A stretch of DNA of 64,000 nucleotides from positions 265,895 to 329,894 of the forward strand of contig DF820467.1 of the NCBI GenBank assembly GCA_000739535.1, read 5' to 3'. The first letter of the stretch is position 1, and each line of letters starts with the position of its first letter. Positions 50,049 through 63,900 of this stretch are shown here, piece by piece. The translations under genes were made by a program, and so were the position numbers. The DNA is from Candidatus Vecturithrix granuli. Lineage in GTDB: Bacteria > Moduliflexota > Moduliflexia > Moduliflexales > Moduliflexaceae. The notes below the pieces were generated by a model. The model saw only the letters and a program-made list of their open reading frames with translations, was not told the origin of the DNA and searched no databases.

Positions 50049-50219
50049 CGTCGGTTTTCCCAGGTTTGATTCAAATGTTTTCGAGAGTCTTCAATGAATA
50101 CCTGAACATTGTCTGTTGCCAGATGTCAAGCAAAATATTGAGGGTGATAATTGCAAAACTCAGCCCTGAGCATAAAAGTTCTTGACAAGCAGAATAACGC
50201 GGTATGTACTCCTATGAAA

Positions 50220-50366
50220 ATGTAGCGCGAAACTCCAGTTTCGCGGGCAGATGAATGGTGCGCGAAACTGGAATTTCGCGCTACATCTCATTTTCATTAC
50301 CGATGAACAACCTTGTTCGTCGATCTACCTGGCATCTGGCGAACAAGGCTGTTCGCCAGTACGATT
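50220..50366. repeat. CGCGAAACT palindrome followed by GAACAAGGCTGTTCG palindrome
   Basis: 50220-50286 carries the TGTAGCGCGAAACTCCAG arms. 50303-50366 pairs ATGAACAACCTTGTTCGTCG with GCGAACAAGGCTGTTCGCC. Both fill the leader of the response-regulator gene. The rest of the 50049-50392 spacer has a TTGACA near 50184 but no convincing promoter spacing. Confidence 0.8.
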
Positions 50367-50392: not shown

Positions 50393-51934
50393 ATGGCAAC
50401 ACAGACAGGAACCGTTCTGGTCGTGGATGATGATTTTACGAACCGCACCTTGCTTGCTGCGAGTCTGGAAGATCAGGGCTACTCAGTGGAAATGGCAGAA
50501 GATGGCCTGCAAGCTCTGGAGCAGCTTCGCGCTCAAAGTTTTGATGCCGTGTTGTTAGATTTGTTGATGCCGGGCATGGATGGCTTCGAGGTGCTTAAAT
50601 GGATCAAGGCCAATGAGCGGCTTCAACATCTGCCGGTGATCATCATCTCGGTCGTAGAAGATATTCAAAGCGTGGTACGCTGCATTGAAATGGGCGCAAC
50701 CGATTATCTCCCCAAACCCTTTGACCCGGTGCTGTTACAAGCGCGTCTCAACGCTTCTCTGGCCGCGAAACGCTTACACGACCAGGAACACGAATACCTG
50801 CGCAACGTCACCCTGCTCACCGACGCTGCGGCTGCAGTTGAAGAGGAGACCTTCAGCCCCGACAGTCTGGCAGAGGTCGCAGCCCGCCCTGACGCCTTAG
50901 GACAGTTAGCGTGTGTCTTTCAAAACATGGCCAGTGAGGTGCATGCCCGCCAGCAATATCTGCAGCATCAGGTGCAGGCCGCCAGCAAAGACCGCTACAA
51001 ATTCGGCCCCATTATCGGCAAGAGTCCGGCCATGCAAGCCGTGTATGAACAGATCGTGAATGTTGCGGCCACTGAGTCTAATGTGCTAATCTGCGGTGAA
51101 TCAGGAACCGGGAAGGAATTGGTCGCTCGCACTATCCACAACCTCAGCCATCGCAAAGCCAAGGAATTTGTGGCTGTGAACTGCGGGGCGGTTCCCGAAG
51201 CGTTGTTTGAAAGCGAGTTTTTCGGATATCGCAAAGGCGCGTTTACCGGGGCGCTGATGGATAAACAAGGCTATTTTGACCGCGCTCACAAAGGCACGTT
51301 GTTCCTGGATGAAGTCGGGGAATTGCACCCCTCGATGCAGGTCAAATTATTACGTGCGCTGCAAGACAAAGAATATAGCGCGCTGGGAGATGCGGCCACA
51401 AAAAGCGTTGATGTACGCATTATCTCGGCTACAAACAGAGATATGCTCGAACAACTGCACCAGGGCGCGATTCGCAAAGATTTCTTTTACCGCATTCGGG
51501 TGATTGTGATCACTCTGCCTCCCTTACGCGACCGGAAAGAAGATATTCCCTTGTTGATCGATGCGTTCCTGAAGGAATACGGCGACAACCGCGATTGTAC
51601 GACCCTGTCCCCTCATCTTGTCACGGCCCTCTGCTCCTATCATTGGCCCGGAAATATTCGGGAACTCCAAAACGAACTCCAACGCTATGTGGTCGAACAA
51701 CGCCTGGAATTTATCGGCGATTATCATGGCGAAGGCGTTGAACCGCCTCTTGTGCCAGCCAGCGATGCCGGGGTAGACGGGCGAAGTCTGCGTGAACTTG
51801 TCGAAGCTTTTGAAAAACAGGTGATTGCCAGGGTACAGGAACAAAACCAGGGGCATACAGACCAGACCGCAGCCATATTGAAGATCCCGCTCAGAACCCT
51901 CTATGGCAAAATCAAAAAATATCACCTGCGCTGA
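50393..51934 (+). CDS. NtrC-type sigma-54-dependent response regulator
   Basis: 513 residues in three domains. The receiver (residues 1-125) has VVDDDF, phospho-acceptor Asp in DAVLLDLLMPGMDG and Lys in YLPKPFDP. The AAA+ domain (about 195-430) has GESGTGKELVARTIHN, the sigma-54 contact loop GAFTGA, GTLFLDEVGE and arginine-finger region. The C-terminal Fis-type helix-turn-helix is QTAAILKIPLRTLYGKIKK. All motifs look functional. It would activate sigma-54 promoters after phosphorylation; a cognate kinase is not adjacent. Symmetrical sites TTGC-N8-GCAA begin 18 bp after its stop, before a sigma-54 promoter, and recur before a second one at 56921. It probably controls the nucleotidase paralogues downstream. 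GGAGGA precedes ATG 50393. Confidence 0.9.
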   Translation: MATQTGTVLVVDDDFTNRTLLAASLEDQGYSVEMAEDGLQALEQLRAQSFDAVLLDLLMPGMDGFEVLKWIKANERLQHLPVIIISVVEDIQSVVRCIEMGATDYLPKPFDPVLLQARLNASLAAKRLHDQEHEYLRNVTLLTDAAAAVEEETFSPDSLAEVAARPDALGQLACVFQNMASEVHARQQYLQHQVQAASKDRYKFGPIIGKSPAMQAVYEQIVNVAATESNVLICGESGTGKELVARTIHNLSHRKAKEFVAVNCGAVPEALFESEFFGYRKGAFTGALMDKQGYFDRAHKGTLFLDEVGELHPSMQVKLLRALQDKEYSALGDAATKSVDVRIISATNRDMLEQLHQGAIRKDFFYRIRVIVITLPPLRDRKEDIPLLIDAFLKEYGDNRDCTTLSPHLVTALCSYHWPGNIRELQNELQRYVVEQRLEFIGDYHGEGVEPPLVPASDAGVDGRSLRELVEAFEKQVIARVQEQNQGHTDQTAAILKIPLRTLYGKIKKYHLR

Positions 51935-51951: not shown

Positions 51952-52056
51952 TTGCTAAAATCTGCAATCTGGCTGTTTTGAGCAAAATAGCCAGTTTCTC
52001 CCATATCGTAAGTTTTTTCAGGAATGAAGATGCGAAAATTTTGCCATTTCCTGCAA
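51952..52056 (+). promoter_or_regulatory. Two inverted-repeat enhancer candidates, TTGC-N8-GCAA
   Basis: Sites at 51952-51967 and 52041-52056 (the second extended to TTTTGC-N8-GCAAAA). They lie 199 and 110 bp upstream of the -12 element of the sigma-54 promoter at 52145. Between them a hairpin CTGGCTGTTTTG/CAAAATAGCCAG (51969-51994) may end the response-regulator transcript. The repeated symmetry and spacing match upstream activator sites of NtrC-type regulators. Confidence 0.55.
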
Positions 52057-52144
52057 AAATTCAATGACCTCGCTTTCATCTATTATGATTCTTGTTTCTC
52101 GTAACTTCAAAATAAACAAAGAGTTAACTTCTATTCAGACCTGT

Positions 52145-52160
52145 TGGCACACCCCTTGCA
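52145..52160 (+). promoter_or_regulatory. Sigma-54 promoter 1
   Basis: TGGCACACCCCTTGCA fits the -24/-12 consensus (TGGCAC-N5-TTGCA) with exact spacing. It precedes the lectin/nucleotidase region. The leader behind it (52161-52429) holds palindromes rather than a conserved gene. A matching element lies at 56921-56936. Confidence 0.7.
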
Positions 52161-52190
52161 TTAATTATATATGAAAATATAACGTTTTGA

Positions 52191-52410
52191 TGCGCGAAAC
52201 TGGAGTTTCGCGCTACATTTTCAAAGGAGCTCTTATGAAGCTCAGGCTCGTCCATCAGCATAAAACTACAAGGATGTTGTGTAGGAAGGATTCCTGGCGG
52301 CGAATTGGTCGGCGTGACATCGAACCCTATCCTTGTAGTTTCAGATGTACCGCGAAACTCCAGTTTCGCGGCTGTCAACGAAGGCGCGAAACTCCAGTTT
52401 CGCGCTACAT
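52191..52410. repeat. Nested repeat cluster in the lectin leader
   Basis: 52191-52218 is a half copy of the CGCGAAACT palindrome, ending before AAAGGAG and an ATG at 52235. 52263-52343 is an AAAACTACAAGG/CCTTGTAGTTTC palindrome. 52345-52410 is a full CGCGAAACT copy ending before AGAGGAGG and ATG 52430. The 52235 frame (MKLRLVHQHK...) translates mostly repeat sequence and is not taken as a gene. Confidence 0.75.
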
Positions 52411-52429
52411 TTTCAGAGGAGGAAGCGTT

Positions 52430-52925
52430 ATGAAAAATTCAGCCTATATTTTTAGCAAGAGATATCAGACAATTTGGATCTGCGCTGCACTTGCGATAGG
52501 ATGCCTGTTTATGCTGGCGCATCCGGCCGCGGCAGAATCGGACAATGCGAACGCGCGGCTTATTGCGGACTGATCCGGCAGTAGAGGGGGGGCAACCGGA
52601 GCATGTTGGAAAAATCGTGATTGCCAAAGAATGGATGAAGGCAGAGGCTTCTCCCTCTTCGACATGTGATGATCCGAATCGAATTTCAAATCCTCACAAT
52701 GGTCATTGTTATCAGAAAATTACGACGCCAATGACCTGGCATGCCGCAAAAGATTATTGCGAAAGCTTAGGAGGATATTTAGCGACAGTGACTTCTCAAG
52801 AAGAAAGAGATTTTGTCTATCGCCACTTCAAAGATGCAAAGCATTTTTTGTGGATTGGCGGTACTGATGAGGCCGACTGTTTTATTCTCAAATCCGGTGT
52901 AGTTACCAAAAGGAGGCTATCATGA
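52430..52925 (+). pseudogene. Exported C-type lectin domain protein, frameshifted and truncated
   Basis: The first frame (52430-52573) gives a signal peptide, IWICAALAIGCLFMLAHPAAA, and stops after 47 codons. A second frame then reads a C-type lectin-like start: CDDPNRISNPHNGHCYQK, TWHAAKDYCESLGGYLATVTS and HFLWIGGTDE. After WIGGTDEADC the domain ends in the right half of the ACTACAACG repeat (TTCTCAAATCCGGTGTAG). The second half of the fold, including the WND/calcium region and last Cys, is missing. The gene has therefore both a frameshift and a repeat-associated 3' loss. Shine-Dalgarno AGAGGAGG at 52415. Confidence 0.65.
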
Positions 52926-54514
52926 AACGCTCAAAAATTTTTATTCGTCTCATTGTTTTTGTCTCTATCGTCTGCGTTCTGTTCAGTGCAACGACAGCTT
53001 TTGCCAAAATCTATCATCTCACCATTCTGCACAATAGCGATCATCACGGGCATTTTACGAAATTTTCCTGGAATGGCATACCGGATGTCGGGGGCATGGC
53101 AGCGAGATCGACGCTCATCAATATCGTGCGGGCCGAAGTTGAGAAGGCTGGCGGACATGTCCTGCTCCTTTCGGGAGGGGATGTGAATATCGGAGTTCCG
53201 GAATCCGATTTACTGGATGCCGAGCCTGATTTTAAATTGATGAACCTGCTAGGGTATGATGCGATGGTACTTGGGAATCATGAATTTGATAAAGCTCTTG
53301 ACGTGTTGATGAAACAGCGCGAATGGGCAGGATTTCCGTTTCTGGCAGCCAATGTTGTCAAAAAGGGAACGGGCGAACCGCTTGTCGATCCCTATATTAT
53401 CAAAGAGCTTGATGGGTTAAAAGTCGCTATTTTCGGATTAACGATGGAAGAAACGAAGATCCTTGCGTTACCGCAACCGCTCGAAACGTTGGAAATTAGA
53501 AGCGTCATTGAAACATCTCAGGAACTTGTCCCGAAACTCCGGGCACAGGCAGATGTGGTAATCGCTCTCAGCCACATCGGATTCTATGAAACTTCAGGAG
53601 CGGGCTATCGCACTCCAGGGGACTTGAAATTAGCGCAAGAAGTTCCCGGCATAGCTGTGATCGTTGGGGGACAATCAGGCACAGTACTTGAAGAACCGGA
53701 AATCATCGGAAATACTCTCATCGTCCATGCTGGCGAATATGGACTCTATGTCGGACGATTGGATTTGACGATTGACAGTGATACGGATGACATCACAGAA
53801 TATACGTACAAACTCCTTCCTGTGAATCTGAAAAGGCAGGTCACCTATCATGATATATCCTATTACATGTATGTTGACAACGGCTATGTCGAAGATTCCG
53901 AAGTCCTTGAGTTCATTCACCCCTATCTTGAACAAACGGCTGAACTCCTCTCACAGCCGGCTGGAGAAGCATTAGTTCAACTTGTCGGTGACAAAAAGAT
54001 CATCCGATCGCAGGAGACGAATCTGGCAAATTTTGTGACCGACAGTATGCGGGCCAAAACCGGGGCAGAGATCGCCTTCTGTAACGCTGGTGGAATTCGA
54101 GCAGATATTGCGGCAGGTCCTATCGCGTATCGGGATGTTTTGAAAGTCCTCCCTTTCGGAAATACCCTTGTGCTATTGGACATGACAGGCGAGCAGATTA
54201 GAGACGTGCTCGACTATGCGGCCACGATTAAACCTGGCAATGGGGGATTTCTTCACGCCTCAGGTCTGACATGGACGAACAATAGAGGCATCCCTGAGCA
54301 GGGGATGATTGGAGGGAAGCCAATTGAGTCGGAGAACATGTATAAAGTGGTCATCAATAATTTCCTGGCTGCCGGAGGAGACGGATATACGATGTTCAAA
54401 GAAGCCCCGCAATATGACACCGGCTTTACGGATGCCTCTGCTTTGCGGGAATATATTATGAAAGCGGGCAAAGTCGCACCCAAAGTCGAAGGGCGGCTGA
54501 CGATTATTGAGTGA
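52922..54514 (+). CDS. Exported bifunctional metallophosphatase/5'-nucleotidase
   Basis: 530 residues. Signal peptide FIRLIVFVSIVCVLFSATTA (cleavage near AFA). The metallophosphatase domain has LTILHNSDHHGHF (metal Asp and His), LLLSGGDVNIG, MVLGNHEFDKAL and IALSHIGFYE. The 5'-nucleotidase C-terminal domain has ETNLANFVTDSMR, FCNAGGIRADI and FLAAGGDGYTMF. The lineup is complete, so it should hydrolyse nucleotides or related phosphoesters in the periplasm. ATG 52922 has AAAGGAGG supplied by the repeat in front of it. Intact founder of a three-copy tandem family (also 54682, 57203). Probably expressed from the sigma-54 promoter at 52145. Confidence 0.88.
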   Translation: MKRSKIFIRLIVFVSIVCVLFSATTAFAKIYHLTILHNSDHHGHFTKFSWNGIPDVGGMAARSTLINIVRAEVEKAGGHVLLLSGGDVNIGVPESDLLDAEPDFKLMNLLGYDAMVLGNHEFDKALDVLMKQREWAGFPFLAANVVKKGTGEPLVDPYIIKELDGLKVAIFGLTMEETKILALPQPLETLEIRSVIETSQELVPKLRAQADVVIALSHIGFYETSGAGYRTPGDLKLAQEVPGIAVIVGGQSGTVLEEPEIIGNTLIVHAGEYGLYVGRLDLTIDSDTDDITEYTYKLLPVNLKRQVTYHDISYYMYVDNGYVEDSEVLEFIHPYLEQTAELLSQPAGEALVQLVGDKKIIRSQETNLANFVTDSMRAKTGAEIAFCNAGGIRADIAAGPIAYRDVLKVLPFGNTLVLLDMTGEQIRDVLDYAATIKPGNGGFLHASGLTWTNNRGIPEQGMIGGKPIESENMYKVVINNFLAAGGDGYTMFKEAPQYDTGFTDASALREYIMKAGKVAPKVEGRLTIIE

Positions 54515-54521
54515 AGGAACT

Positions 54522-54665
54522 ACAACGAATTTGGAAGTGGAATGGATTGAAGAAGAGGATAGTCGTGACAATCAGAAAAAGACTACATCGGATTTGAGAA
54601 TGGAACGAATTGGAGAAGGGGACAGTGGTTTTATCCGTTCCATTCTCAAATCCGATGTAGTTACC
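54522..54665. repeat. ACTACAACGAATTTGGAA palindrome, long copy
   Basis: Left arm ACTACAACGAATTTGGAAG, right arm TTCTCAAATCCGATGTAGT, with an internal repeat of the GAATGGAACGAATTGGAGAA motif. The right arm continues into TACCAAAAGGAGG, the Shine-Dalgarno of the next paralogue at 54682. The same right arm and Shine-Dalgarno precede the first paralogue at 52922. Confidence 0.75.
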
Positions 54666-54681
54666 AAAAGGAGGCTACATC

Positions 54682-55974
54682 ATGAAATTCACAAAAACAT
54701 CATTTAGTGCCATTGTATTTATCGCTGTTGTCTGTCTTTTTCTGAGTCCAACCATCAGCCTTGCCAAAATCTACCATCTGACCATTCTGCACACCAACAC
54801 TCATAGTGGACATTTTCTGAAATTTGATGAATATCCTGTTCACGACATTCGAGGTATGGCGGCCAGATCGACCCTCGTGAATATCGTGCGGGCTGAGGTC
54901 GAAGAAGCGGGCGGACATGTCTTGCTTCTCTCCGCCGGCGATGTCAATATTGGCACTCCGGAATCAGATTTACTTTATGCTGAGCCAGATTTCAAATTGA
55001 TGAACATGCTTGGCTATGACGCCATGGCGATTGGCAACTTTGATCTCCACCACCCTCCTGAGGTATTGATGCAACAGCAGGAATGGGCAGGATTTCCTTT
55101 CCTTTCAGCCAATGTCGTGAAAAAGGAAGCAGGAGAAATTCTCGTCGACCCGTATATCGTGAAAGAATATGATGGGTTACACGTTGCCATTTTCGGTTTA
55201 ACGGTGGAACAGGCTGATTTTACTTCGAAACATGGAGGAATGTTTGAGAGCAGAAGCGTGATCGAAACAGCGAAAAAACTTGTCCCGCAATTAAGACAAA
55301 AGGCCGATATTGTCATTGCGCTCACTCATATAGGGCATATAATAGAATCAGGTGGCAGCTATCGGACGCCAGGCGACATCCAATTAGCCGAAGAGGTCAC
55401 TGAAATCGACGTCATTGTCGGTGGAGAAACGAATACAATCTTTACAGGACTCAAAGCTATCGGGAACACGCTGCTCGTTAATCCCGGTATGTATGGGCGC
55501 TATGTAGGAAGATTGGATCTGACGATTGACAGCGAGCGCAGAAAAAAGTTAGCGACTATACCTATACACTCATTCCGGTCAACTTAAAAAAACAGGTGAC
55601 ATATAAGGGGAAATCATACTATATGTATCTTGAGCAAGGATATGTTGAAGACCCTGCCGTTTTGGATTTCATTCAGCCTTATCTGGATCAACCTGAACGA
55701 AGTGGGATGGTTCATACGTCAGGCTTAACCTGGACCGTCAAAAAAGGCATCCCGGAACAGGTGATGGTAGGAAACGCTCCTATCGAGTTAGAGAGAGTGT
55801 ATAAAGTTGTCACGACGAGTTACATAGCTGCTGGTAGACCTCACTATGTGGCTTTTGAAAATATTCCGCAATATGACACCGGATTTACAGATGCTTCGAT
55901 GCTGCGGGAATACATTTATGAAACTCGGCACAGTCGCGCCCAAAGTCGAAGGACGGTTGAGGATTATTGAGTAA
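54682..55974 (+). pseudogene. Second metallophosphatase/5'-nucleotidase paralogue, inactivated
   Basis: Starts with signal peptide FSAIVFIAVVCLFLSPTISL and follows the first paralogue closely to about residue 290. Catalytic positions are already changed: LTILHTNTHSGHF lacks the Asp-His pair and AIGNFDLHH replaces GNHEFD. At 55545-55560 a run of A shifts the frame; the new frame continues YTYTLIPVNLKKQ. About 95 residues, including ETNLANFVTDS and NAGGIRADI, are deleted near 55697. A second shift near 55917 leads back to KVEGRLRIIE and TAA 55974. It is dead as an enzyme. A truncated 301-residue product could still be made. Confidence 0.8.
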
Positions 55975-56062
55975 AGGGAGAACGAAGTAATGTTAACCTG
56001 ATTTCCAGCTACGCAGTAACAAAAAGTTCTATTCGTAATTTCGTTTTCTTCGAAACAATTGC

Positions 56063-56091
56063 TTGACAAGCCAGATAACAGTTCCTATTCT
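56063..56091 (+). promoter_or_regulatory. Sigma-70 promoter before the small gene pair
   Basis: TTGACA (56063-56068) and TATTCT (56086-56091) with 17-bp spacing, about 50 bp before ATG 56143. The 55975-56142 spacer contains nothing else I can support. Confidence 0.5.
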
Positions 56092-56142
56092 CAAATTGTT
56101 CGATGAGGTACGGATGTTAACGCAAAAAGAGCACTCATTCCT

Positions 56143-56382
56143 ATGGATTTTGAAGTTGTCGGGGACATAGCTTATATTGAGACAATTGCTGTCAGCGGCT
56201 CTATTCGTGAAGTCGCTCGACTACGAAAACGCTACGGTCCCGGTCGGTGGAGAAAATGCAAAGGATTTGCGATGGTGCGTCTTTTCCCGGATGATATGCT
56301 CTGCAAAGCTGAAATACATTGGTATGAAGCCCATGGTATCGGGAAAAAAGAAATGAAAATTAAACGTATTGTGGATGATTAA
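56143..56382 (+). CDS. Small conserved-looking protein, possible toxin-antitoxin member
   Basis: 79 residues: MDFEVVGDIAYIETIAVSGS, then IREVARLRKRYGPGRWRKCK and ELHWYEAHGIG-like HWYEAHGIGKKEMKIKRIVD. The basic, compact composition resembles a widely dispersed small family often found in pairs; I do not know its function. Three bases separate it from the next small gene, and a good promoter precedes it. A toxin-antitoxin-like role is conceivable from size and pairing only. Confidence 0.6.
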   Translation: MDFEVVGDIAYIETIAVSGSIREVARLRKRYGPGRWRKCKGFAMVRLFPDDMLCKAEIHWYEAHGIGKKEMKIKRIVDD

Positions 56383-56385
56383 ACG

Positions 56386-56619
56386 ATGAAACAGGATGAT
56401 GGAGAAATGCTATTTGCTGTGTGTATTCATAATGAAGGCTATCCGGCGTCATTAGAACTATGGAAGCTCTACCAGGTTATTGCTGATCCTCAGGCTGATA
56501 AATATCACCGAATACGGATTATTGACGAATCTGGCGAAGATTATCTGTATCCGGTTGCCTATTTTGTGCCGATCGAGGTGCCGGAAGCTGTGCAGCGCGC
56601 CTTTTCTGTCGCGGCTTAA
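56386..56619 (+). CDS. Small conserved-looking partner protein
   Basis: 77 residues: FAVCIHNEGYPASLELWKLY, then RIRIIDESGEDYLYPVAYFV. Acidic. The sequence resembles a small family common in repeat-rich genomes (an N-E-G-Y, then I-D-E-S-G-E-D-Y-L-Y-P pattern) with no assigned activity. It is coupled to the preceding 79-residue gene. Function unassigned. Confidence 0.6.
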   Translation: MKQDDGEMLFAVCIHNEGYPASLELWKLYQVIADPQADKYHRIRIIDESGEDYLYPVAYFVPIEVPEAVQRAFSVAA

Positions 56620-56715
56620 CGAGATTTCGACGGACAGGGCTGTCGCTCGGTACGCCTATTTACATGTGGAGTTGCGAAGCCGCCCGTTGTTTTTCTTCCT
56701 TATGGGTAAACCATT

Positions 56716-56830
56716 TTGCTAAATTTTGCAATTTTGCGGGTTTTTGCACAATCGATCCCATGCTGGACTTTCATCGTCTATAAAGCTGTTTCGAATGATC
56801 GTTGAAGATTATCATTGCCATTTTTAGCAA
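56716..56830 (+). promoter_or_regulatory. Three TTGC-N8-GCAA enhancer candidates before sigma-54 promoter 2
   Basis: Sites at 56716-56731 (exact), 56734-56749 (TTGC-N8-GCAC, one mismatch) and 56815-56830 (exact). The proximal one centres 112 bp upstream of the -12 element of 56921, the distal ones 193 and 211 bp. These distances parallel 110 and 199 bp in the 51952-52160 region. The 56620-57202 spacer has no gene. Confidence 0.55.
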
Positions 56831-56920
56831 ATTTTCCCCTTTTCCTTCTCACATTCCACCATCTCATAAACGACCATAGCTAGAATGAATATCCAGAGTT
56901 AAAGTACATAACAGGTGTGT

Positions 56921-56936
56921 TGGCATCCCTCTTGCA
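56921..56936 (+). promoter_or_regulatory. Sigma-54 promoter 2
   Basis: TGGCATCCCTCTTGCA fits the -24/-12 consensus with exact GG-to-GC spacing. It lies about 270 bp before the third nucleotidase paralogue, with a palindrome in the leader. It shares TTGG-CA-CCC-TTGCA layout with promoter 1 at 52145. Confidence 0.68.
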
Positions 56937-57028
56937 AATATACAGAGTCATTCAGGTCTGAATGTTGATAAGTTGCTTGCTGGTGCAATATATTCGTTTT
57001 ACAAATGGAGTCATTATTTAGATGTACT

Positions 57029-57202: not shown

Positions 57203-58923
57203 ATGATGATGAAAGCTTTCAAAACATCATTCAGAGTTATTGTGTTCGTCGCTGTTGTCTGTCTTTTTCTTTGTCCAACTACCAGCCTTGCCAAAATCTA
57301 CTATTTGACCATCCTGCACACCAACGATCATCATGGACATTTTCTCAAGTTTTCGCCATTCAACAACCCGGATGTCGGCGGCATGGCGGCGCGTTCGACT
57401 TTGGTAAATATTGTGCGGGCCGAGATTGAAGACGCGGGCGGACACGTGCTGCTTCTCTCGGCGGGCAATGTGAATATTGGGGTAGTGGTATCCTGTACAT
57501 GATGCACGTTCCCTGAGCGAAGTCGAAGGGAACGCCTGCGTGCTCGTCTCGACTCCGCTCGACGACCGGTCATCATGTACAAGGTAGCCAATACTTATTG
57601 GCATTCCTGAATCGGACTTGTTGCACGCGGAGCCGGATTTCAAATTGATGAAGATGTTAGGGTACGACGCCATGACATTGGGCGATCTTGAATTTACCGG
57701 CCCGCGTGAGATATTAATGCAGCAGCGCGAGTGGGCGGGGTTTCCGTTCCTCTCTGCCAATGTGATCAAGAAACAGACCGGCGAACTGCTTGTCGATCGC
57801 TATATCATCAAAGAGTTCGATGGATTACAAGTTGCGATCTTTGGTTTGACACTGGAGGAAATTTCGGTCCTCGGCGACCATGGATATATCGGGGATCTGG
57901 AGTTCAGGAGTGTGATCGAAACAGCGCAAGACCTCGTGCCGAAATTGAGAGCGGAAGCGGATCTGGTGATTGGCCTGCCCCATATCGGCTGTCATGAAAC
58001 TGCTGGCGTTGGCTATCGTAACCCCGGGTGATGTGAAACTCGCCAAAGAAGTCCCTGGCATTGATGTGATCATTGGCGGACAATCGCGCACAGTCCTTCA
58101 AGAAGCTCTCTGCGTTGGAAATACGCTGATTGTTCAGGCCAGTGAATATGGTATGTATATCGGTCGCTTGGATTTGACGATTGACAGTGAAACCGATAGT
58201 ATCACGGAATACACATACAAGCTTCTTCCTGTTAATCTGAAAACAGCAGTGGAATATCAGGGGAAATCTTATTACATGTACGCTGACAAGGGCTATGCGG
58301 AAGATCCCGAAGTCCTCGAATTCATTCAACCCTATTTAGCGCAAGTTGATGAGATCCTCTCACAGCCAGTAGGGGAAGCGCTGGTGAACCTCGACGGCGA
58401 CCGGGACGCGATCTGGTATCGGGAAACGAATCTGGCGAATCTGGTGACCGATAGTATGCGGGTCAAAACCGGAGCTGAAATCGCGGTTCAAAACGTGGGC
58501 GGCTTTCGCGCCGGGATTGCCGCAGGGCCTATAACTTACCGCGATATTTTGACCGTGCTGCCTTTTGGGGATCGACTTGTACTGCTGGATATGACCGGTG
58601 AACAGGTGATGGAAGTCCTGAGCTATGCAGCCACCGTGAAACCCGGAGCCGGAACTTTTCTGCATGCCTCAGGGTTGACATGGACGAATAACAAAGGTAT
58701 CCCTGAACAGGTGATGGTAAACGGCGCGCCGATTGATCTCGAGCGCATGTACAAAGTAGCGACCAGTGATTTTTTGGCGCGCGGCGGCGACCGCTACACA
58801 ATGTTCACAGACGCCCCACAATATGATCTCGGGTTCACCCTTGCCTCTGGCCTGCGAGAATATATCATGAAAAAAGGCAAAGTCGCGCCCAAAGTGGAGG
58901 GACGGTTGACAATAATTGAGTGA
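57203..58923 (+). pseudogene. Third metallophosphatase/5'-nucleotidase paralogue, split by a MITE and a frameshift
   Basis: Three ATGs (57203, 57206, 57209) follow AAGGAGG. The signal peptide and LTILHTNDHHGHF are intact. After GNVNIG the frame is broken by a 114-115 bp palindromic element (57481-57595) plus a TATTGG duplication; removing 121 bp rejoins VNIG with IPESDLL in frame. The metal motif GNHEF is replaced by GDLEF. A one-base insertion near 58031 (after VGYRNPG) breaks the frame again; the remainder (58032-58923) matches paralogue 1 to the stop, with NVGGFRAGI in place of NAGGIRADI. Not functional as it stands, though its promoter region (sigma-54, 56921) is well kept. Confidence 0.85.
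57481..57595. mobile_element. Palindromic MITE, copy B, inside the third nucleotidase
   Basis: Ends GGTAGTGGTATCCTGTACAT and, inverted, AGTATTGGCTACCTTGTACA. The interior has GTTCCCTGAGCGAAGTCG and TCGACTCCGCTCGA palindromic cores, as in copy A. TATTGG occurs at 57475-57480 and 57596-57601, the target duplication. Length about 115 bp. It resembles copy A in the GGTAGTGG terminus. Confidence 0.75.
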
Positions 58924-60979: not shown

Positions 60980-63900
60980 ATGCTCATGAAAACACGCTCG
61001 ACTTATAACCACTGTTCATTCTGGGCAAAAATTGGGGGTCTGGTTCTCCTTTATAGCGTGATGCTCTTACCACCCCTCTACGCCCAACATGTCGAGTCTA
61101 TTCCGATTGAACAGGGCTTTGCGCAGCGGTCTGTTGTCTGTATCTTTCAGGATAGCCGCGGATTTCTGTGGTTTGGCACAAAAAACGGACTCAGTCGTTA
61201 TGACGGCTACAACTTCATCATTTTTCGTCATGATCCTGAAAATCCCCGGAGTTTGAGTCATAATCATGTGACCTCCATCTATGAAGATGCTTCCGGCGAC
61301 CTCTGGATCGGCACGAATGGCGGGGGATTGAATAGATTTGAGCGCGAACAGGAATATTTCAGCTCTTATCAGGCTGATCCTGACGACCCCCGCAGTTTGA
61401 GCGACAATAGAGTGTTTGCCGTGCATGGCGACCAATCAGGGTCACTCTGGATCGGAACCTTGCGCGGCTTAAATAAACTTGATCTGAAAAAGATAGACTC
61501 CGGGAGTCTCGGAGACTCCCGGAGTCTTAATAACTTTCTGCTCTACCAGGCTGACCCCGGTGATTCCTATAGCTTTCACAACCGGGTGTTTGCGCTGTAT
61601 GAAGATCCTGCGGGCGCATTCTGGATTGGTACGCAAGGCGGCTTAAAACAATTTGATCGGGGAACAGGCCGCTATATTGATTACCAGACCGATCCGGTGT
61701 ATGTGATCTATGAAGATCAAGCCGAAAATTTCTGGCTGGGCGCGATCAGCGGTTTAAAGAAATTTGACCGGAAAAGCGGCCAATTCATCCATTTTCACTG
61801 TGACTCAATCTCATCGCTCTATGAGGATCGCACAGGCGTCTTGTGGATTGGTACGAGCAGCGGCTTGATGCAATTCTCTCTTCAGACCGAACAATTTCTC
61901 GCGGACCAGCCTTCTGCTGATGCGCTGCTTCAGAGTCTGACCGACAACGAAGTGCTGGCAATGTACGCCGATCGTTCCGGCGTGCTCTGGATCGGCTCTC
62001 GTACCGGTATCAAAAAAGTAACGCAGGAAACCGAGCATTTTCTGCATTATGTCCACGATCCTGAAAATCCTGAAAGTTTGAGTCACAATGAGATCACTAC
62101 CGTATATGCAGATCGTGCGGGAATGATCTGGATCGGAACAGCGTACGGCATGCTGAACCGCTTTGATCCGCAAACCGGAAAATTTCGGCATTATCAGGTT
62201 GAACAAGTTGATCCCTATAGCCAGGCGAAAATGAGAATTACGTCAATCTATGAAGATCAATCCGGGGCGTTCTGGATCGGCACCCAGGGGGAATCCGGAG
62301 GGAAACGCGCCGGACTCAAAAAGCTTGTCCTGAGCCCTGCCCTGAGCGATGTCGAAGGGGAAGTCGAAGGGTTTGACCCCATAACGGAACAATTTACCCC
62401 CTATTACAGCGACCCAAAGGATCCAAACGGCTTGAGTGAGAATAATGTGACGGCCATCTCTGCCGACCATGCCGGAATGCTCTGGATCGGTACGTTTGGC
62501 GGCGGTCTCAACCGGTTCGACCCAACCACAGAACAATTTCTCCGCTTCCAAAATGACCCCAACAATCCCAACAGCTTGAGTAATGATAATATCACCACAA
62601 TCTATGAAGACAGCGCCAACGTGCTTTGGATCGGCACATTTGGCGGCGGCCTCGACCAACTTGTCCTGAGCGAAGTCGAAGGGCTAGATCGTAATACGCA
62701 GCAATTCACCCATTTCCGGAACGATCCTGCTGATTCCTATAGTTTGAGTTATAACTGGGTCAACTCCATTTATGAAGACCGGTCAGGGACGCTCTGGATC
62801 AGTACTGGCAATGGTCTCAACAAACTTGTTCCTTCGACTGGCTCAGGACAAGCTCTGAGCGGAGTCGAAGGGTTTAATCGAACGAATAAAAGTTTCATCC
62901 GTTACACCCAGAAAGATGGATTGCCCTACAATTCGGTGTACGGGATCCTGGAAGATCCGCAGGGAAAACTCTGGCTCAGCACGCCGAACGGATTGTCACG
63001 ATTTAACCCGCAAACAGAGATCTTTCGAAATTATGACAAGGAGAATGGGCTGCAGGTGCTGCGTTTTAGCCAGGGAGCGTACGCGAAGAGTCAAAGCGGT
63101 GAAATGTTTTTCGGCGGGGTCAATGGATTTGTCAGGTTTTCGCCAGCCCATAACGCACACAAACCTCCGATTGTGCTGACGGATTTTCAAATTTTCAATA
63201 AATCGGTGCGGGTAGGCGCTGATGCGGCAGAAGATGATTCACCCCTGAAAAAGGCGATTACAGAGGCCCAAAATATTGTGTTATCCTATAAAGCAAGCGT
63301 CTTTTCTTTTGAATTTGCCGCTTTGGATTACACTCTGCCGGAAAAGAATCAATACGCCTACATAATGGAGGGCTTTGATAAGGAGTGGGGATACTCCGGG
63401 ACGCGACGGGTGGCGACCTATACCAATCTGCCGGCCGGGGAGTATCTCTTCAAAGCCAAAGGCTCGAATAACGATGAGATCTGGAATGAAGAAGGCGTGT
63501 CAGTCAAGCTCACCATTCTCCCTCCATTCTGGGAAACCCTGTGGTTTCGGGCGCTCATGGTGTTGGGAATTTTAGGAGCAGCGATTAGTATCTTTGAGAT
63601 GCGGGTACATTCAATGAAAAAACGACAAAACATGCTTGAAGGACAGGTCAGGGAACGCACGGCCGAATTAGAATTACAAAAAGAAGCGGCAGAGACGGCC
63701 AACCGGGCCAAAAGCACGTTCCTGGCGACCATGAGTCACGAGATCCGCACCCCGATGAACGGTGTAATCGGCATGACCAATCTGCTCCTGGATACCGAAC
63801 TCACCCTGCATCAGCGAGAATTTGCCGAAACTATCCGTAATAGCGGCGAAGCCTTGCTGTCCATTATCAATGATATTCTTGATTTCTCCAAGATCGAAGC

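Follow-up and report, generated by a model that had tools for sequence, protein, structure and literature searches.

In the window, by which we mean the whole 64,000-nucleotide stretch of Candidatus Vecturithrix granuli DNA analysed here, the gene for an NtrC-type regulator (50393-51934, forward strand) ends 17 bp before an inverted repeat of the form TTGC-N8-GCAA, located upstream of a sigma-54 promoter. The question raised by this locus is whether the repeat is the site of the adjacent regulator and, if so, which promoters are served by it. The regulator carries a receiver domain (PF00072, E 7.5e-32), which places it in the two-component subgroup, a sigma-54-interacting AAA+ domain (PF00158, E 3.5e-67) with the GAFTGA loop, and at residues 470-510 a Fis-type C-terminal helix-turn-helix (PF02954, HTH_8, E 1.6e-7) with the recognition helix PLRTLYGK. 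By these domains it is an NtrC-family enhancer-binding protein, for which DNA binding and promoter activation are predicted. None of the named NCBIfam equivalog cut-offs was reached: the scores were 395.9 bits for AtoC (NF008469, cut-off 714), 359 for ZraR (760), 357 for NtrC (559) and 332 for the PEP-CTERM response regulator (503). These four, all among the best NCBIfam scores, share the order of receiver, AAA+ and Fis-type domains with the regulator and differ from it in their targets. The host genome carries one rpoN gene, as judged from a single Sigma54_DBD gene. A Reg_prop/Y_Y_Y-type hybrid histidine kinase, with HisKA, two receivers and Hpt, starts at 60980 on the forward strand and continues past the window end (64000) to about 65731; this kinase may be the partner of the regulator's receiver domain.

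Two forward-strand sigma-54 promoters, each with the -24 GG and -12 GC elements at N10 spacing, were located within the window. Promoter 1 (TGGCAC-N5-TTGCA, 52145-52160) is preceded by a distal dyad, TTGCTAAAATCTGCAA, at 51952-51967 and a proximal dyad, TTGCCATTTCCTGCAA, at 52041-52056, and promoter 2 (TGGCAT-N5-TTGCA, 56921-56936) by TTGCTAAATTTTGCAA at 56716-56731 and TTGCCATTTTTAGCAA at 56815-56830, all four being exact copies of TTGC-N8-GCAA; an additional site with one mismatch lies at 56734. The dyad centres lie about 96 bp and about 167-197 bp upstream of the -24 element of each promoter. The sequence-only reading had listed the same five sites and both promoters, had placed the sites 110 and 112 bp (proximal) and 199, 193 and 211 bp (distal) from the -12 element, and had noted before the first site a regulator with GAFTGA and a Fis-type domain; on all these points it was accurate. 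As a bare motif, TTGC-N8-GCAA occurred five times in the window against 2.24 expected, a count reached in 9 of 100 shuffles, and the match at 56973, downstream of promoter 2, is probably due to chance. Palindrome-like repeats of another type, CGCGAAACT[CC/GG]AGTTTCGCG, are present in several copies across the window (for instance at 52187-52420 and 50200-50290), including the leader behind promoter 1.

Pattern searches were extended to the whole genome of 8.38 Mb. The bare motif was found 228 times, no more often than by chance, and the promoter pattern TGGCA-N6-TTGC 202 times, against 38 in the control. When TTGC-N8-GCAA was required to lie 74-104 bp upstream of this promoter pattern, exactly three cases were detected, all in the window's cluster, against none in the control and about 0.17 expected by our own arithmetic (202 promoters × 31 positions × 228/8.38 Mb). 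Thus, the dyad itself stands at background frequency, but its placement before sigma-54 promoters, for which a background frequency had been named as refuting the proposal, is enriched. No such placement was observed in three relatives devoid of the regulator, and the exact regulator was kept in none of the relatives examined.

The third case turns what had been described as a two-promoter regulon into one of three promoters. Promoter 3 is located at window-equivalent position 65961 (C17:331855; L071:5856), 2 kb beyond the window end, and the hybrid kinase gene lies between it and promoter 2. Its proximal dyad, TTTGCCATTTATTGCAAA, starts 104 bp upstream, and the gap between proximal dyad and promoter is 88, 90 and 87 bp for promoters 1, 2 and 3, respectively. 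The distal site of promoter 3, GTGCAGATTTTAGCAA, has one mismatch to TTGC-N8-GCAA, and its reverse complement, TTGCTAAAATCTGCAC, is one base off the distal site of promoter 1. Upstream regions of the three promoters align chiefly at the dyads and the promoter, the flanks differing while the sites stay alike; given this partial similarity, the three may not be fully independent, and they may be derived from one another. A one-mismatch search with TTGCCATTT-N3-GCAA gave no convincing extra member of the regulon.

The targets had been proposed to be a tandem family of exported phosphatases/nucleotidases and a lectin. The intact gene of this family (52922-54514) encodes an exported protein with the Metallophos and 5_nucleotid_C domains also found in the UshA 5'-nucleotidase; since both domains are present but the best match, UshA (NF007109), gave 462.6 bits against a cut-off of 600, we call it UshA-like only. 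The second copy (54682-55971) is frameshifted and partly deleted, the third (57203-58923) is frameshifted, and the C-type lectin (52545-52925) is a remnant of half a domain with a signal peptide upstream in another frame, all being on the forward strand. The lectin and two of the three nucleotidase copies therefore look broken. Assembly errors are possible, the genome being a draft for which contamination is estimated at 10.75%. Behind promoter 3 are different genes, encoding an exported protein of no known family, a CHAT-domain protein, a VWA/FGE-sulfatase-like protein and a weakly GAF-like protein. The proposed target set thus has to be narrowed. A similar N-terminus (MHVHSFQH...ERSRM) was seen in the proteins of L071:10480-11181 and L057:5457-6008, each of whose genes follows a promoter linked to a different sister regulator.

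The regulator is one of a series. In a phylogenetic tree, it forms a clade with its paralogues from this genome, three regulators of a second genus and one of Desulfobacterales HSG2, supported at 100/100; L057 and L062 had been removed from this tree by Walker-motif trimming, and L066 fell outside the clade. Profile scores separated the clade within G001-G003 and HSG2, members giving at least 491 bits and others at most 382, and no member was detected in the two genomes of the order's other family. Most clade regulators adjoin a sigma-54 promoter with two dyads in similar geometry, each with a different half-site: TTGC for the window's regulator, TGYCA for L059, CGGCC for L056, CGGWC for L060, GTCT for L063, TATC for L064 and TGCA for L065 (L058 and L062 being left out of this assignment). 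A de novo double-dyad score was judged against 400 dinucleotide-preserving shuffles of each region; 12 of the 15 clade-linked promoters were significant, versus 7 of 40 further sigma-54-like promoters from this genome (Fisher p 3e-5), the 15 being not all independent because they include the window regulator's three promoters and orthologous pairs, and some having been first spotted by eye before the score existed. At 40 loci of other activators, few promoters were found nearby and a significant dyad pair at none, indicating that not every activator shows this pattern. Within the clade, at least five promoters with dyads of the form TGYCA-N4-TGRCA, spread over 27 kb (L059 and L238; C20:584637-611905), seem to belong to the L059 regulator. 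The clade regulator at L057:6330-8072 has GTFTSA in place of GAFTGA, and may not activate the sigma-54 polymerase in the usual way. Among the control promoters, the sigma-54-like one of L270 (C15:148744) is accompanied by a strong pair of CTACA-N9-TGTAG dyads, which may be bound by a different activator.

Orthologues of two sister regulators occur in another genus, with the sites kept there, once in trans. The orthologues L065 and L069, from two genera, both adjoin TRAP-transporter-like genes (named by sequence likeness) and both have sites of the TGCAA-N3-TTGCA type. L067, the orthologue of L061, has citrate-lyase-like and tripartite-transporter-like neighbours and GGACATTTTGTCC sites, while L061 itself has no adjacent promoter in the window's genome. 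Search of this genome for the L067 site yielded three copies of the GGACATTTTGTCC type upstream of a sigma-54 promoter at L209:6690 (C19:58690, minus strand), with citrate-lyase-like genes some kilobases downstream and a dyad score of 33.7 versus 20.3 (0/100 shuffles). The promoter is probably controlled in trans by L061, which is encoded on a different contig. The pattern GGACA-N4-GTCC plus promoter had given no match, as the proximal sister site is AGAC, and a looser pattern then found the targets.

Taken together, the genome-wide uniqueness of the placed dyad and the rule that clade regulators lie beside their own dyad pair make it probable that TTGC-N8-GCAA is the private upstream activating sequence of the regulator encoded at 50393-51934, driving three promoters. 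The pairing of regulator and site, put forward by the sequence-only reading, is thus well supported, direct binding being something we infer. The dyads could instead be owned by a different member of the clade, for instance the L059 regulator, alone or jointly with the adjacent regulator: the recognition helix of L059, PLRTLYRK, is one residue apart from that of the window's regulator, and the L059 half-site TGYCA also fits the TTGCCA found on the left side of every proximal dyad. The C at position 4, however, is present in all 16 half-sites of L059 and absent from the other half of every site of the cluster, and TTGC is almost invariant among these sites (12/12 at three positions and 11/12 at the fourth); moreover, the sites of L059 itself are on another contig, beside L059. 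We regard this assignment as unlikely.

Somewhat less likely still is an unrelated dimeric factor, a repressor or activator of another family, with some other activator serving the promoters. Inverted repeats of 16-bp span are used by many factor families, and binding by the regulator is predicted rather than observed; yet the position of the dyads relative to the -24 element fits the clade-wide anatomy, and the site is unique to the sigma-54 promoters of this cluster. Chance, by which AT-rich spacer DNA would yield TTGC-N8-GCAA near promoter-like sequences, agrees with the background frequency of the bare motif, but is largely refuted by the three co-occurrences described above and by their nearly fixed spacing. 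The dyad scores of the single promoters are modest, but each of the three reached a shuffle p of 0.012-0.027, and we consider chance highly improbable.

If the dyads do belong to the adjacent regulator, its Fis-type helix-turn-helix dimer would recognise TTGC-N8-GCAA, and the two dyads upstream of each -24 element would load the activator. The receiver domain would have to be activated first, the nearby hybrid kinase being a candidate source. The AAA+ domain would contact sigma-54 RNA polymerase via DNA looping, and three promoters would be opened, two of them before the nucleotidase genes and one before the CHAT-domain and VWA/FGE-sulfatase-like genes.

The wider distribution of this arrangement was examined around HSG2, where 117 of 291 genomes encode related activators. 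Sixty loci were analysed, giving 42 promoters within 3 kb of a regulator, and in this independent set 26 of the 42 carried significant dyad pairs, mostly 165-216 bp after the regulator stop codon and starting near -170 and -100. Promoter 1 of the window fits this layout (211 bp, -193 and -104). Similarity of the recognition helices was correlated with that of the half-sites (Mantel r 0.41, p 0.0006 for the HSG2 set; 0.26, p 0.0008 overall), and shared descent contributes to this correlation. A two-residue code, in which residue y specifies position 7 and R2 position 6, held for the first ten regulators, with p values of 0.008 and 0.022, the best of 20 tests and uncorrected. Predictions noted beforehand were only partly borne out: G at position 6 was observed in 14 of 15 cases, yet is nearly universal at that position, and T was found for y = Y in 9 of 11 versus 7 of 14 for y = F, a weak discrimination. 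In addition, the sites of L393 and L374, with the helices PRRTFFRK and SRRTFFRK, differ. In an alanine scan of LuxO, Ser423 and Tyr426 were essential (PMC11407668); in our own alignment, these align with the two code positions. For L342-L398, the genes behind the promoters look mostly metabolic by the first residues of their products (FAD-dependent oxidoreductases, for example), in contrast to the window's genome, where such genes are for transporters and exported enzymes. It is conceivable, though we hold it with some doubt, that the window's regulator belongs to a cross-lineage radiation with fixed promoter anatomy and private half-sites, partly readable from a few residues of the recognition helix. 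The partial protein-to-DNA code is kept as a tentative reading only, given its weak discrimination and the differing sites of L393 and L374.

Among the systems already described, the Vibrio proteins LuxO and SypG are likewise sigma-54 activators with a receiver and a Fis-type helix-turn-helix, related to each other and with different but partly overlapping sites (PMC10162802, PMC11407668). The LuxO site, TTGCAWWWTGCAA, has TTGC/GCAA ends and is present in two copies about 100 bp upstream (PMC10162802, PMC11407668). Its half-site is the nearest to that of the window's regulator, but the spacer between TTGC and GCAA is 5 in LuxO (PMC10162802) and 8 at every site of the cluster, none of which has the LuxO form TTGCA-N3-TGCAA. 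The regulator scored 309.9 bits against the LuxO cut-off of 800 (NF041946), and the targets of the two differ. In Desulfovibrio (PMC4641369) and Clostridiales (PMC6615313), activator genes lie beside their own sigma-54 promoters, each with a private palindrome and a small regulon. The window system shares the activator beside its promoter, the private palindrome and the small regulon size with these regulons (PMC4641369, PMC6615313). Motif similarity reportedly did not always track that of the DNA-binding domain there (PMC4641369, PMC6615313), whereas it does so to some extent within the window's clade. TTGC-N8-GCAA was not encountered in the main text of either paper, nor was a published activator site of this form found in the open-licence literature.

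Private palindromic sites beside activators are thus already established, and the regulator described here probably adds one more, with a paralogue series behind it. It offers a concrete and testable three-promoter regulon for an unstudied lineage, and, with several dozen regulator-promoter pairs located, a family of activators with a common layout and differing DNA addresses. With these paralogues one can ask how the specificity of Fis-type activators shifts after duplication without cross-talk, a question beyond the reach of single regulons, and the clade is well suited, as a natural series, to the study of how such switch proteins read DNA.
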